Source: a virus
Reading direction: 5' to 3' (one strand)
DNA length: 38,652 bases
IMG/VR virus record: IMGVR_UViG_3300005346_000147
Coordinates: 1 to 38,652 of that record
Shown here: one piece after another, positions 3,949 through 16,320 of the stretch
Layout: each line of letters begins with the position of its first letter
Position numbering within the stretch: the stretch's first letter is position 1
Made by a program: the position numbers and the translations under genes
The notes under the pieces: generated by a model
What the model was told of the DNA's origin: nothing
The model's input: only the letters and a program-made list of their open reading frames with translations
Database searches by the model: none

Positions 3949-4115
3949 AAATACTCAGTCCTCAATCTGACTTTTGCGCTATGATGATCGAGCAGCGCAT
4001 GGACTGGAAAATTCTGGTCGCCGCGTTTGTAAATTAAGTCCTGCTTTGGCAGGCCAGGAGAGTTGATCGCCTCCTGCTCCCCCCCTAAGCCTCTCAACGA
4101 TGCTCAAACCTGGGG

Positions 4116-4190
4116 GGCGCTGGCCCTGAAGTGTTGGCACACGCTATGCTCACAGTATAGAATTCCGTGGTTCGATTCCCGGCAGCGCCT
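4116..4190 (+). tRNA. tRNA-Val(CAC)-like gene
   Basis: The acceptor arms pair perfectly (GGCGCTG 4116-4122 with CAGCGCC 4183-4189). The anticodon arm has a 5-bp stem CTATG/TATAG around a 7-nt loop CTCACAG, giving anticodon CAC (4151-4153). The T-loop TTCGATT is flanked by CCGTGG and CCCGG, a perfect stem if the T in CCGTGG is an extra base. The D-arm folds poorly and U8 is not clear, and there is no encoded CCA. It is either a real tRNA with one or two read errors or a degenerate one. The 167-nt stretch before it (3949-4115) holds no gene I can support. Confidence 0.6.
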
Positions 4191-4749: not shown

Positions 4750-4784
4750 AATATAGCTTCCACGCTCCAAGAGCTGGTTACGGA

Positions 4785-4816
4785 AGAAAAAAGGCCCCTT
4801 ATGGGGCCTTTTCTTT
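4785..4816. terminator. Bidirectional Rho-independent terminator
   Basis: An 8-bp stem AAGGCCCC / GGGGCCTT with a 4-nt loop is flanked by A6 on the left and TTTTCTTTT on the right, so it can stop transcription from both sides. On the plus strand it ends the metallophosphoesterase transcript. On the minus strand it can end the terminase operon. Confidence 0.85.
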
Positions 4817-4840: not shown

Positions 4841-4869
4841 TTGACTGCATAAGCGCTTATGCTTACGAT
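4841..4869 (+). promoter_or_regulatory. Sigma70-like promoter with palindromic operator in the spacer
   Basis: A -35 like TTGACT (4841-4846) and a -10 like TACGAT (4864-4869) are separated by exactly 17 nt. The spacer contains a perfect 16-bp palindrome, GCATAAGCGCTTATGC (4847-4862). This is the classic layout of a repressible promoter. The only thing downstream on this strand is the short RNA ending at 4936. Confidence 0.5.
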
Positions 4870-4875
4870 GGAATC

Positions 4876-4936
4876 GAAGGGAGCGGAAGCCCTTCAGAGC
4901 GGAACCTGGGAGGGGGTGGTGCCCCTCCTTTTTTTT
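4876..4936 (+). ncRNA. Candidate small RNA of about 60 nt
   Basis: Starting about 7 nt after the predicted -10, the sequence folds into a 6-bp hairpin (GAAGGG / CCCTTC, loop AGCGGAAG). A short linker and a GC-rich terminator hairpin with eight T follow. The octamer GAGCGGAA occurs twice, starting at the end of the first stem and running into its loop (4881), and in the linker (4897); exposed repeats of this kind are often seed regions in regulatory RNAs. It contains no ORF, and the next plus-strand gene lies 4 kb away. Function unknown; expression is not shown by sequence alone. Confidence 0.45.
4909..4936 (+). terminator. Terminator of the candidate small RNA
   Basis: A 7-bp stem GGAGGGG / CCCCTCC with a 6-nt loop and eight T immediately after. 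It is oriented for plus-strand transcripts only and ends at the stop codon of the converging minus-strand microprotein gene. Confidence 0.8.
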
Positions 4937-5047
4937 CTAGGCAACTTTAGTGTAGGACACACCACGATAAATGAGATGTGCAAGTTGCGCTTCGCGTAGA
5001 CGAGCAGCTTTTTCAAGCTTTGCCTTGATCATGGCAAGGATGTTCAT
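4937..5047 (-). CDS. 36-aa microprotein ending in YRGVSYTKVA
   Basis: A small minus-strand ORF has a clear ribosome-binding site (GGAGAA, 5 nt before the ATG). The protein has an amphipathic charged helix (MIKAKLEKAARLREAQLA) followed by HLIYRGVSYTKVA. The YRGVSY core resembles the start of cyanobacterial DUF4278-type proteins, which points to a cyanobacterial host; this is recalled from the family, not searched. It is the last gene of the leftward operon and abuts the terminator of the converging small RNA. Confidence 0.65.
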   Translation of the reverse strand: MNILAMIKAKLEKAARLREAQLAHLIYRGVSYTKVA

Positions 5048-5158
5048 GATGGTTCTCCATGAGCCAGGCCCCGTTGCATGCCTGGTGATCATGCAGCCTC
5101 ATCTCTGAGGCCCAACGTGATTAAATTCTAACAAGTGCCTCTGGCAGGCGCATCATAA

Positions 5159-5441: not shown

Positions 5442-5626
5442 CTATTGTCTTTTACTAATTTTATGAGCTTCTTTTAATTTTGGGAGCAGTTTTTTTTTTT
5501 TTTTTTTTTTTCCGAGGCTTGTAGGCATGTTCTGCTGCTAGTAATTGCAAGGCAGTTTGTTTGTTGGCTTGCAATAAAGTGACAAGAAAAAGTTACTTCT
5601 TTAGCTGAAAGCTCTAGGGTTAACAT
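5442..5626 (-). CDS. Small basic protein with a poly-Lys tract (frameshifted)
   Basis: Joining two frames on the minus strand gives about 61 residues: MLTLELSAKEVTF, then LVTLLQANKQTALQLLAA, EHAYKPRK, a run of Lys, and LPKLKEAHKISKRQ. The Lys run is encoded by 22 consecutive A on this strand (5490-5511), whose true length is uncertain. One indel lies near 5587. The helix plus basic tail could bind nucleic acid. It follows the terminase gene by 41 nt in the same direction. Confidence 0.5.
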
Positions 5627-5667: not shown

Positions 5668-8409
5668 TTAACGAACAAGGCTATTCAACCAGTCAACATC
5701 ATTATCTTTTGATGCTTCCATGACTGCTGCTGCCAATGCAAAAGCATAGTCATCTACGCCAGTTTCTTTACCACCAGTCACTGCCCATTGACCACTTTGC
5801 CGGTAAATAACACTTAAATTTTTAAGCTGAAATGTGGCCTTCTTATGCGGATACATTTCAACCAACCCAGCATTAAATAGCTCCTTCATTTTGCTAAATG
5901 CTTTCATTTTGGTGCTAACGGACCATGCAAGCTCACAAATCGGGAAGTCTTTGGAGAGACTTTGGATAGTGGCTGAGCTATTAAACTGGTCAAGCACAAT
6001 GGATTGAAATTCATAAATGCGATGATGCTCTTTAATCCAATCTTCTACTTTGGCGATATTAACTTCTTTCTTACCAGCAATTTCAAAGTCAGGCTCAAAG
6101 GCATGGAACTTATCTACGATTAGACGTTCGCCTTCATAATGAACAATGCAAGCAGTGTAGTCATCTCGTCCGACGCCACCACGAGCAGGGTCAAGAGCCA
6201 ACACGTATGTTCCCATGTTATTCTTTCATTGGGAACAATACGCTTCTGTCTTTATTAACTGCACTATCAACAATTTCAGGGGCAAGTAATGCTGATTGGC
6301 TTTTAGCAAATTGCGCTCCAAATTCCACCCAGAAGCTCTCTTCATCTTTTTTGCGAGCATTCTCCAGAAAATCACATCCCCATGGCAAATTTGGATTGAT
6401 TTCCCATGTCGGAATTTGTAATGATTGCATGCCGGGGTATTCACCGCTTTCGGCTTGTTTGAAATGTTCAAAGAACAGTCCGTCCGTGAGCCAAGGAGAA
6501 GACAGTTCAATGATTTTGCCGTATTTACCAAACTGTGCAATGGAAGGCGAAAGGGCGTCGTACATGGCCTTTGGCGCCACGGTTGGCATCGCCTTCGATA
6601 CTGAACGCAAGCTCATCTTGAATGATTGCAACAACTGCTTTACCACGAGAAGCGCGAGCTGATGCTGGAATAGCTTGAAACACACAGCCATTACTAATTT
6701 CTATTTCCATTGCAATCTCTCTAACCACTTCTTGCTCGAAGGGGGCTATTTAAGATCAATTGGCGAATGTTTTCAAGCGCGATTTTGGCTTGGCTTAGGT
6801 CATTTGCAACAGTAATAATGTACCATTTTTCGCCTTTTCTAACTTTGCGAGTGAAGGTAATCTGCTTGCACAAAACACATATAAGTTGCAGCAACTGCAG
6901 CCATGAAGGTCTTGCCGCTGTTGTGATTAACAATACCATTAGCAACAAAAGCATTTGTAACTGGGAACATGAAAATCAAACACTTCTTGCGGGGGTTCAA
7001 TTTCGATCCTTGAGACCGGATCGTAAAACAGCACGGTTTCTGCAAGTTTGCGAAAGTGATTGGCGGCTTCTCCGTACGCAAGATTAGAGTCAAGAAAATT
7101 AACAAGATTTGGCAATCGTCGTGCATTGAATTCTTCGCCAGAATTCTTGAGCGCATTCCCAACAAGCATGCGAAGTTGAGTGACAATACCCCGCCCGCGG
7201 GATTCGCGCAACTCTTCGACAAGGCGCTGGAGGTTGTTTGTTCTGGTGGGGAATGGCCGCAGTATTCCCGCCATCTCGCGTGATGTTTAATCCTTGCAAG
7301 GCTTTTAAACTGCTTAACGCGGAAGGCGAAATTTAATATCAGAGCAAAATATCTGGCGAGCATTCAGCCCAAGCAATGTCAAGTTCCAATAAACCTTACC
7401 GTTCACTGGTTTTGGACTTAATTTGGACAGAATGCCAAGATTAAGAAGAAGCATCTGCACTTCCCGTCCAAGCATTTTGGAAGCAGTGCTAAATGTAATG
7501 GCCCTACCTTGTTTTTCTACGGAACCATCAGTATCAAATAATCCAGAAAGAAAAGCGAAAAACAATTTACTCGGCGAGACTGCATAATAATCCAAGGCAC
7601 TCGCTTTTGATCGCGCATTACTTTGGTTTTCCAACCAAGATCATTCAAAAACGCCCTATAATGGCGCGAATAATACTGCGCTTTGTGTGTTGATTTTCTT
7701 CGATTGTCTTTTGTAATTTTGAAATCAATTCCCAGTCCACGTTTTAGCGAGTCAAGCATAAAAGGCATGTCTTGTTCATGAGACGTGAATCCAACGCCAG
7801 TAGAAACAGTCCACGAGCCATCTCCGACCAACACGCCAATGGCATAGGCCATATCTTCGTTAATCGCTTTGGGAACATTAATTATTTTGGCGCCTGCACT
7901 ATTGGCAGCATTTTCAATATGTTTGGCGGCGATTGCTCTAATGTTGGGATTGTTTTCTGGCCAAGTGTTGGCTCCAGGGCGAATAACAACTTGATCGCCT
8001 TTGGTTAAATCGCCAAGTTGTTTCCATTCATGTTCACCATTTTGCCCCATAACCATTAGGGGATGATTGGGAGTACCAGCAATTTCAAAGCCTCGCGAAG
8101 TTTGAACGCGAATAATATCCTGCTTCCCGCCTTGATAAAACATGGCGGCATTTCTTGCCATTCCGCTTGGTTGAGCAAGTTTTGCATTGCATTTTTCCCA
8201 GCCGTCATGAAGTTTTTCCCCTGTATTTGACAGCGAGCCAATTTCAATCATGCCATTGTCCGTTGCAATTAACGTGTCGGCAGTAACGCACCGTCTTCCC
8301 ATGGCCCAAATGGCGTGATTGGTTTTATCTTCAAACAATCCATTAAGGATTTTCTCTTGTCGCGGCCAAAGTTTAACACCAAGGGCATGCTTGGCAAATT
8401 CAAGAACAT
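5668..8409 (-). CDS. terL: Terminase large subunit, interrupted by an intein (frameshifted)
   Basis: The ATPase and nuclease of the DNA-packaging motor. The N-extein (8409-8291) carries the adenine-binding segment LGVKLWPRQEKIL and the start of Walker A (AMGRR). After the intein, SGKTFMAA completes the P-loop. Walker B is VVAIIQDELAFS and the coupling motif is ELSSPW. The C-terminal nuclease has acidic residues in LALDPARGGVGRDD, SIVLDQF and TGVDDYAFALA. Without the intein it is about 456 residues, normal for the family. Frames break near the start, and near 6830, 6720, 6560 and 6217. The ATG at 8409 overlaps the end of the upstream gene, but the protein frame is reached only after an indel, so the start is uncertain. 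It is encoded opposite to the portal and head genes. Confidence 0.9.
6920..8290 (-). mobile_element. LAGLIDADG intein in the terminase P-loop
   Basis: A protein-splicing element of about 457 residues with an embedded homing endonuclease. The splice junctions are clear: after GRR it begins CVTADTLIATDNGMIEIGS (block A, first Cys at 8290-8288). Block B is GTPNHPLMV. Two dodecapeptide motifs follow, AIGVLVGDG (about 7820-7860) and FLSGLFDTDG (about 7520-7560). It ends EVFDFHV..VTNAFVANGIVNHN before Ser of SGKT (Asn codon 6920-6922). Cys1, the penultimate His, the final Asn and Ser+1 are all present, so splicing looks possible. Indels near 7600, 7320, 7270 and 6960 break the frame but not the motifs. 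Confidence 0.92.
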
Positions 8410-8978: not shown

Positions 8979-10403
8979 ATGAGCGAAGAAGCCGTTGAAT
9001 TGGGCCACGCCACTGAAGGCGGCTTGCGGAATGATGGCCTGACCAATGTGTTTACCGGCATGGGAGTGAGAGGCAGGGATAAAAGCCTTTCCACTCAAAC
9101 GGATCCCATAATCTTCTTGACGCAAGAAGAACTTGAGGGCCTTTATGGCGAATGGCTGCCTCGTCGTATTGTGGACATTTATGCAGAACAGGCAACTCGT
9201 CGTGGCTTCAAAGTGTTATTTGGCGGGGAAGGTGCTGCTGCTGAGGAAGTTGCTGGCATTGAGCAAACGATCGAAGACCTGTATATTCTTGAAAATTTTA
9301 TGCTGGCGTCCAAGAACTCTAGGCTTTATGGCGGTAGCGTGATTTTGCTGTATATCGACGATGGTCGTAGTGCGGATCAACCAGTAAACAAAAACAACAT
9401 TCGTTCTATTGAAGGAATGGAAGTATTGGACAGGTGGCAGATTGCGCCTGTCATTAACGAAAAGAATTTATACGACTATTCCAAAGCAACTTACTATCAG
9501 ATTATTTCTGGCGATCTTATTAACAAACCTCAGCTTATTCGCATTCATAAAGATAGGATTTTGCGTTTTGATGGTGACTGGTTGCCTTATCGCATTAGAC
9601 AAAGGAACTATGGATGGGGAATGAGTAGTCTTCAAACTGTTTATGAAAGCTTCAAGCATTACTGGACAGGATTGCATTCCAGCGCTACGTTGATGAGCGA
9701 ATTTGACATTTTCGTCCATAAGATTAAGGGCTTAGCTCAAATGCTTGCTGCTGGTAAGGAAGGCGACGTGAGGAATCGTTTTGATCTTAAATGACATGAG
9801 CAAGAGCGTTTTATCGTGGCTATGCGATTGATGCAGATAAAGAAGAGCTTGAATTTATTGGGCGAAATTTTGGCGGCATTGGTGAAATTTTAGAGAAGCT
9901 TCGTGTTGATATTATTGGCGCTTCGAAAATCCCTCATACTGTATTGTTTTGGCGAAAGTCCGAGCGGACTTGGTTCTACTGGTCGCAGTGAAGAACGCGA
10001 TTTCGCGAAAACACTTGCAGATTACCAACAAGCCTCTTTCCATCGTCCTCTCAAGAAATTGATGGAATACATCATGCTGAGTTCTGACGGTCCCACGAAA
10101 GGACGAGTTCCAGATTCATGGCGTGTGCATTTTAATGATTTGTTCGAGCTGAACGAACGCGAGAAAGCCGATGTGAGGGCGCGTGTAGCAGCCGTAGACG
10201 GGCGCTACATCCAACTGGGAGTATTGCATCCCAAAGAAGTGGCTGATGCACGTTATGGCGGCTCTGAGTGGTCAATGGAACTCACTCTCGATCCATCGCT
10301 TCCCCGCGAACTGCCCACCCAGGAAGGAGGTGGTTCCCCTCAAAAAAGGGGGTGGTTCCGGGAAGTTGGCCGTGCCTCCTGGTGGCAGAGATCCGATGAA
10401 TGA
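8979..10403 (+). CDS. Portal protein, DUF1073 type (frameshifted)
   Basis: Forms the dodecameric ring at the capsid vertex through which DNA passes. About 470 residues. The N-terminal part matches the DUF1073 portal pattern (LEGLYGEWLPRRIVDIYAEQ; ATRRGFKV), and the second half has the signature IPHTVLFGESPSGLGSTG followed by RDFAKTLADYQ. Frames change near 9790 and 9945. The last residues before the stop at 10401 (REVGRASWWQRSDE) look unnatural and follow an A6G5 run at 10341-10351. Shifting there leads without a stop into the next ORF, so the portal may be longer than annotated. Confidence 0.85.
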
Positions 10404-11070
10404 AGAAAATGGCACGCTGCCAATGGACGGCACTAGGGAGGTGGCTGATGCGGAAGCTGGTTTATTCCTTGAGCGTGATCTTGAAGCAAAGCGCGGTGAT
10501 GTTAAGTTCACGGATAAAGAACTTCACAATCGCGCCGTTAGCTCTGCAAAAAGCAAATTTAAGGTTTGGCCTTCTGCTTACGCCAGTGGTTATGTAGTGC
10601 AGCAATACAAGCGCTTGTATAAAGAAAAGCATGGCTCTCTTTCAGGTGCATTTAAGAGCGATGGCGAAGAACTACATGCTGATGATTTGGATAAGTGGTT
10701 TAAGGAAAAATGGGTGAGGATTGGTGCTAATGGTGAAATTCTTGGTCCTTGCGGCGCGCGAGAAGAGCGTGAAGGAAAGCCGAAATGCCTACCTCAGGCG
10801 AAGGCAAAAGCCATGAGCAAAGAAGAGCGCAAAACAATTGTTGCCCGCAAACGCTCTCAGGATCCCGATCCAGACCGTAAAGGCAAAGCAAAGCTTGTTA
10901 GCAGCAAGGTTGATGCGATTTCACCATTGGCTGCTGATGGTTATATTTTAGGCGAAGTGGATGAAGCTGCTTTGATCAGCGAAGCCGATGTAGAAGAAGC
11001 CTTGAAGCAATGGAAAGAAGAAGCGCCAGAGCGCTTCAAGGACATTCTTGAGGCGAATGATGTTGAATGA
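10397..11070 (+). CDS. DUF5872-like protein, possibly the portal C-terminal domain
   Basis: From the ATG at 10397, about 224 residues, acidic at both ends. The centre matches the DUF5872 pattern of marine viruses: a KELHNRAVSSAKSKFKVWPS helix, AYASGYVVQQYKRLY, then a loop with two Cys (GPCGA..KPKCLPQAKAKAMS) and a basic EERKTIVARKRS. The C-terminus has helical repeats (EEALKQWKEEAPERFKDILE). It overlaps the portal end by 7 nt. The same frame is open back to 10246, and the portal frame shifts into it at an A/G homopolymer, so a portal-DUF5872 fusion is as likely as a separate gene. The role of the domain is unknown. Confidence 0.7.
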
Positions 11071-16045: not shown

Positions 16046-16320
16046 GCGGCATTAACAATAAAACTTGGATAACCACCAAGCCATAAAATGCTTACGCCGA
16101 ACAATCCACTCATCACCCTGATCTGCAAGAAATCTGGTTGAATTTCTGCCTTTTCTAGGCGTGAGATGGTGCTTTGATTGCAATGCAGCGCAATGGCCAC
16201 GTCTTTTTGCGACATGCCACAATTCATGCGTGCTGCTTTAATGCGAGAAGCGATAATTGCCTTTGCTTCTCCATAGGAAAGCTTTAGCACGTCAGTCTTG
16301 CTGGCTAAAATATGCTGCAT
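16006..16320 (-). CDS. XRE-family transcriptional regulator
   Basis: A 104-residue DNA-binding protein on the strand opposite the surrounding head genes. The N-terminal helix is followed by a classic HTH_3 domain (RIKAARMNCGMSQKDVAIAL, HCNQSTISRLEKAE, then FLQIRVMSGLFGVSILWLGG), as in lambda-type repressors and single-domain phage regulators. The serine-rich tail (SSSSSSRRSFN) is antisense to the acidic end of the neighbouring gene and may not matter. It has its own promoter and inverted repeat just upstream and could control itself and head-gene transcription. No protease or dimerisation domain is visible. Confidence 0.8.
   Translation of the reverse strand: MQHILASKTDVLKLSYGEAKAIIASRIKAARMNCGMSQKDVAIALHCNQSTISRLEKAEIQPDFLQIRVMSGLFGVSILWLGGYPSFIVNAAQSSSSSSRRSFN

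Follow-up and report, generated by a model that had tools for sequence, protein, structure and literature searches.

Does a 96-nt interval between two converging operons of a cyanophage genome hold a small-RNA gene of its own, and on what would such an RNA act? The interval (4841-4936) lies in a 38,652-nt IMG/VR virus contig, the whole of which we call the window, and which is related to Synechococcus phage S-CBS4, an estuarine siphovirus (64% identity in TerL). The initial annotation took it for an independent phage small RNA with its own promoter and terminator, placed under a dimeric repressor. Several reading frames of the window are broken, as from homopolymer errors; a run of about 22 T at 5490-5511, together with the broken phosphoesterase and TerL genes, suggests that such sequencing errors are present in the contig. 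An intein-like insert with LAGLIDADG-like motifs also appears to split TerL (6839-8338, minus strand) at the Walker A motif (AMGRR / SGKT), as seen in translated ORFs only.

Anatomy of the interval

To the left, terminator 1 (4789-4812) ends a plus-strand RNR/phosphoesterase operon; it is bidirectional in the window contig and the only leftward terminator in the window. To the right the neighbouring gene is convergent, so that both borders are as initially annotated. The interval opens on the plus strand with a -35 hexamer TTGACT (4841-4846) and a -10 hexamer TACGAT (4864-4869). The 17-nt spacer between them does contain the exact 16-bp palindrome GCATAAGCGCTTATGC (4847-4862) that had been pointed out. 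Scored with a rough, self-made sigma70 matrix, this promoter-like site ranks 11th among 77,234 positions scored in the window. Downstream come hairpin 1 (4876-4895, GAAGGG/CCCTTC), a single-stranded GA-rich linker (4896-4907) and an intrinsic terminator (4908-4936, hairpin 4908-4929) with a GUGGUG loop and a T run, at the coordinates given for them at the outset; the terminator would supply the 3′ end of the RNA and hairpin 1 its predicted 5′ end. Because hairpin 1 begins 6 nt past the -10 hexamer, here and in the relatives of lineages B and C described below, transcription would start at the first base of the hairpin, with a predicted +1 near 4876.

The predicted RNA appears to be noncoding. 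It contains no ATG, the frame from the ATG at 4860 opens ahead of the predicted +1 and is not matched in relatives, and comparison with these relatives showed that the transcript has no ORF that is conserved. On the plus strand no real gene follows until the portal gene, which starts at 8979, and this bears out the annotated lack of any plus-strand gene for 4 kb. Rfam 15 returned nothing at gathering score over 4841-4936; the matches that it gave fell short of the threshold, SorY for example with 21.2 vs 111 bits. Elsewhere in the window Rfam does recognize an abiF RNA (4081-4117, plus strand, 54 bits with a cut-off of 37), immediately ahead of a tRNA-Val-like gene (4122-4190), and it is also present in L023, L025, L027, L069, L076, L079 and L120. 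An abiF RNA has already been reported in cyanophage S-CREM1 (PMC9964418); it might be a decoy against AbiF defence.

Conservation of the module in four lineages

Relatives were gathered as TerL neighbours of the window phage and their element regions were then compared. With the window as lineage A, lineage B comprises L002, L004, L005, L007-L015, L051 and L091 (without L006), lineage C comprises L121/L133 and L124, and lineage D comprises L116-L118, L131 and L132; C and D were picked up by a terminator scan and a broader terminator scan, with the element at the same position. At least four lineages thus have this module at an equivalent position, with TerL down to 58% identity (60% for C and 58% for D, measured against the lineage B protein of L013), and in all of them the terminator of the upstream operon is followed by the promoter-like site, a hairpin near +1, the linker and the GUGGUG-loop terminator hairpin. 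The lineage B interval, for instance, reads promoter-like site, AAAAAA, hairpin GCAAGG..CCTTGC, linker, and terminator GGCGGGG-GUGGUG-CCCCGCC.

The covariation search in relatives that the initial annotation had called for found the fold kept in all four lineages. Built on lineage B alone and with the window excluded, a covariance model recovers the window at 4876-4934 (E 3.6e-7), starting exactly at 4876, as well as lineages C and D (E 3e-11 to 4e-6). When the window is compared with lineage B in alignment A2, which was not fitted to the model, both RNA hairpins are 100% paired and three of their pairs have changed on both sides. A larger alignment, A4 (15 rows), shows changes on both sides with pairing kept in 7 of 14 pairs and a covariation score of 0.314, compared with 0.165 in shuffled alignments (0/500) and at most 0.149 in slid ones, figures that lean towards structure because A4 was fitted to the model and one of its rows, a match on the reverse strand of L015, is spurious. 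Compensatory changes are found in both hairpins, as expected of a conserved secondary structure. Folded as a single sequence, the window element does not stand out (z of -0.85 to -1.05), whereas its relatives give z of -3.2 to -5.7.

The promoter-like site is kept in position more than in sequence. It stands 6-8 nt ahead of hairpin 1 in A, C, D and all of B except L051, and between the -35 and hairpin 1 lineages A and B differ by no indel. The -10 is invariant as TACnnT in lineages A-C and reads TATGTT in D. The -35 is weakly conserved and, in lineages B and C, the least conserved part, its counterparts being TTGTTC, TTGTCG, TTGTCT and TTTCTT, and TTTACG in lineage D. Whole sites accordingly read TTGTTC-17-TACATT or a variant of it in B, TTGTCT-17-TACCAT in C and TTTACG-17-TATGTT in D. 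Homologous sites of lineage B score in the top 0.06-0.45% of positions, L051 excepted (poor, top 2.4%). The conservation of promoter and fold on which the annotation had staked its reading thus holds for the fold and for promoter position, the -35 sequence being weakly conserved, and support for the putative promoter is positional rather than functional. An inverted repeat TAAGC-N6-GCTTA over the -10 of relatives was set aside, as it overlaps the -10 itself and its pairing (85%) mostly fails at one pair.

The element is missing from S-CBS4, the closest isolate seen, and from most other TerL relatives examined, some of which keep the convergent peptide gene. The small RNA itself has no match among the known isolates of the phage collection, the match to S-CBS4 being confined to the region of the peptide gene. 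A strict-pattern scan of genome_contigs for a host copy gave one match, in Bifidobacterium, which we judged to be due to chance.

Small RNA, terminators or operator

The main rival is a cluster of convergent terminators with no small RNA, which we consider unlikely, if the most serious of the alternatives. Terminator 1 and the GUGGUG hairpin would then stop plus-strand transcription in tandem and shield the convergent gene, hairpin 1 would be the leftward terminator, and the promoter-like sequence would be incidental. In favour of this reading, a simple consensus scan found no regional excess of promoters (5 vs 5.5 expected; for terminators it did find one, 12 vs 4.4 expected), hairpin 1 with its A run makes a good leftward terminator in B and C, and in these lineages A6 and the hairpin 1 stem are the best-conserved part and the -35 the least conserved. 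Against this reading, hairpin 1 does not have the form of a leftward terminator (a stem followed by a minus-strand T run) in the window and in D. As the window and D use other leftward terminators (in D terminator 1 and/or a separate hairpin), hairpin 1 has been kept where it does not serve as one, and a good-scoring promoter-like site precedes it in all four lineages, with the one exception of L051. We also observed that upstream of terminator 1, at 4750-4788 of the plus strand and in its homologues in A-C, the 3′ UTR forms a hairpin, followed by GGUUACGGAA, that seems to be kept through compensatory changes.

In nearly all members, moreover, one plus-strand terminator lies at about -76 to -87, counted from hairpin 1, and a second at +32 to +41, the upstream one of L118 scoring under the scan threshold; these two, some 110-120 nt apart, flank the promoter-like site. 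The conserved module, the compensatory changes and the failure of hairpin 1 as a leftward terminator in two of the four lineages together support an independent small RNA, as the initial annotation proposed and as the comparison of promoter position, fold and terminator now upholds. A transcribed small RNA is probably the better reading of these sequences, and the element looks like a real, previously undescribed cyanophage small-RNA gene.

Such an RNA might instead act in trans or as a protein sponge, its GUGGUG loop or GA-rich linker binding an mRNA of host or phage, or else a protein, a possibility that we regard as doubtful. The loop is invariant while both stems covary, and exactly one GUGGUG-loop terminator was found in each of the 12 records examined (12/12). 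In the collection scan GGGG-GUGGUG-CCCC terminators occur at 24 loci, whereas three central-base variants of the loop together occur at 3 and a permuted loop at none, a specificity that is defined by these two loop controls and not by a full survey. The linker, on the other hand, varies in sequence among the relatives, and unrelated transcripts end in the same loop: some GUGGUG-loop terminators merely end genes or come after a tRNA, and those of L122, L123, L125 and L126 belong to no clear promoter-driven small RNA. Since such terminators also occur elsewhere without a clear small RNA, conservation of the loop may belong to the terminator; the loop looks favoured, though it may be the terminator that is favoured with it. 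It nevertheless offers a simple search tag for further such loci. At L115, L119, L120, L127 and L130 a strong promoter-like TTGACA-17/18 stands about 90-105 nt ahead of a GUGGUG-loop terminator, and these apparently noncoding loci, partly in much larger phages, are candidate small-RNA genes; unrelated phages with a GUGGUG terminator showed no convincing common motif ahead of it. In L018, about 1.8 kb beyond terL and just after the RNR beta gene, TTGACA-19-TATGAT leads straight into a terminator.

Control of the small RNA by a repressor, with the palindrome as its operator, is very improbable: the palindrome fills the spacer almost exactly and the window does encode an HTH_3 protein (16078-16242), but perfect 16-bp palindromes arise about once per window by chance (0.95 expected in Markov-1 simulations vs 2 present, at 4847 and 10605), GCATAAGCGCTTATGC is missing from all relatives and has no close second copy in the window (best other match 4/16 mismatches), and neither the window nor S-CBS4 nor G001, a long contig of lineage B, yielded an integrase. 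Chance-level and unconserved, the palindrome thus leaves repressor control unsupported; the exact promoter-plus-palindrome pattern has no match in viral_contigs. The other perfect palindrome, ATACAAGCGCTTGTAT (10605-10620), lies in a coding frame, has the core AAGCGCTT in common with the first and is probably due to chance. The repeat GAGCGGAA, present in two copies in the window element and earlier suggested as a target-pairing seed, was likewise abandoned, being missing from relatives.

A candidate antisense RNA facing a glutamine riboswitch gene

Where the initial annotation saw the end of a converging operon, it missed the identity of the convergent neighbour. This is a gene for 36 amino acids (4937-5047, minus strand) facing the small RNA, whose product is weakly DUF4278-like (Pfam 13.9 bits, under the 25.3 cut-off) and whose leader contains a Glutamine-II riboswitch aptamer (5063-5120, minus strand; 30.7 bits, cut-off 33). 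The riboswitch model, RF01704, matches in lineages A-D and in S-CBS4 (29-33 bits in B, 34-44 in C and D, 44.9 in S-CBS4), and in every lineage the gene that the small-RNA element faces is a tiny one with a glutamine riboswitch in control. Type 2 glutamine riboswitches go with DUF4278 genes in picocyanobacteria (PMC6316151; PMC2864571), and this known pairing of Glutamine-II (Downstream-peptide) riboswitch and small DUF4278 gene is the convergent neighbour itself; a small-RNA gene facing it is not reported in the literature consulted.

No leftward terminator lies between the stop of the convergent gene and the 5′ end of the small RNA in any of 11 members (0/11), so that the 3′ UTR of the leftward mRNA would carry the full complement of the small RNA. 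We propose, at about even chances, that the element is a free-standing noncoding RNA gene of about 60 nt whose product acts in cis as an antisense RNA, as OOP does in lambda, which is less certain than its transcription, the antisense relation being read from geometry alone. The RNA would be transcribed from its own sigma70-type promoter on the plus strand, from a predicted 4876 to about 4935, and would consist of the 5′ hairpin, the short linker and the intrinsic terminator with its unchanging loop. The leftward mRNA of the riboswitch-controlled gene would run through the same stretch, including a mirror hairpin with a CACCAC loop; contact between the GUGGUG and CACCAC loops could start pairing of the two RNAs, and pairing could lead to cleavage or altered stability of the 36-aa mRNA. 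The cis-antisense reading is the most economical in that geometry guarantees the partner, provided that leftward transcripts run that far.

Among known systems, the closest are the phage antisense RNAs OOP of lambda (77 nt) and sar of P22 (68/69 nt) (PMC12197685). The candidate resembles them in being short and of similar length, in having its own (here predicted) promoter, in ending at an intrinsic terminator and in being complementary, here by geometry, to a neighbouring phage transcript. It differs from both in that the overlap lies in a 3′ UTR and not in the coding region of a lysogeny gene, and Rfam gave no match that would relate it to either in sequence. The CfrI antisense RNA of cyanophage S-PM2, about 225 nt long and linked to psbA and a homing endonuclease (PMC12197685), is likewise a noncoding RNA from a cyanophage and also lies where a metabolic gene ends, at its 3′ end, but its locus, size and neighbours are all different. 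A further likeness is to the small RNA NsiR4, which pairs with the 5′ UTR of pirA in Synechocystis, PirA being a small protein (PMC9196836): there too a small RNA controls a small nitrogen-regulatory protein. Unlike NsiR4, the candidate pairs with the leader of the 36-aa gene no better than expected (z about 0), and NsiR4-like pairing with that leader was rejected.

Few cyanophage small RNAs have been described, to our knowledge. This one is conserved across divergent phages, is tied to a glutamine riboswitch and a peptide, and allows precise predictions of both ends of the RNA, 5′ and 3′, and of its antisense pairing. We suggest, tentatively and with more doubt than confidence, that in some cyanophages a small protein gene controlled by a glutamine riboswitch is faced by an antisense RNA gene dedicated to it, which would give these phages double control at the RNA level. 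If true, a single peptide would be controlled twice, by metabolite sensing at the 5′ end of its mRNA and by antisense RNA at the 3′ end, and this doubly controlled peptide may act on the nitrogen metabolism of the host.
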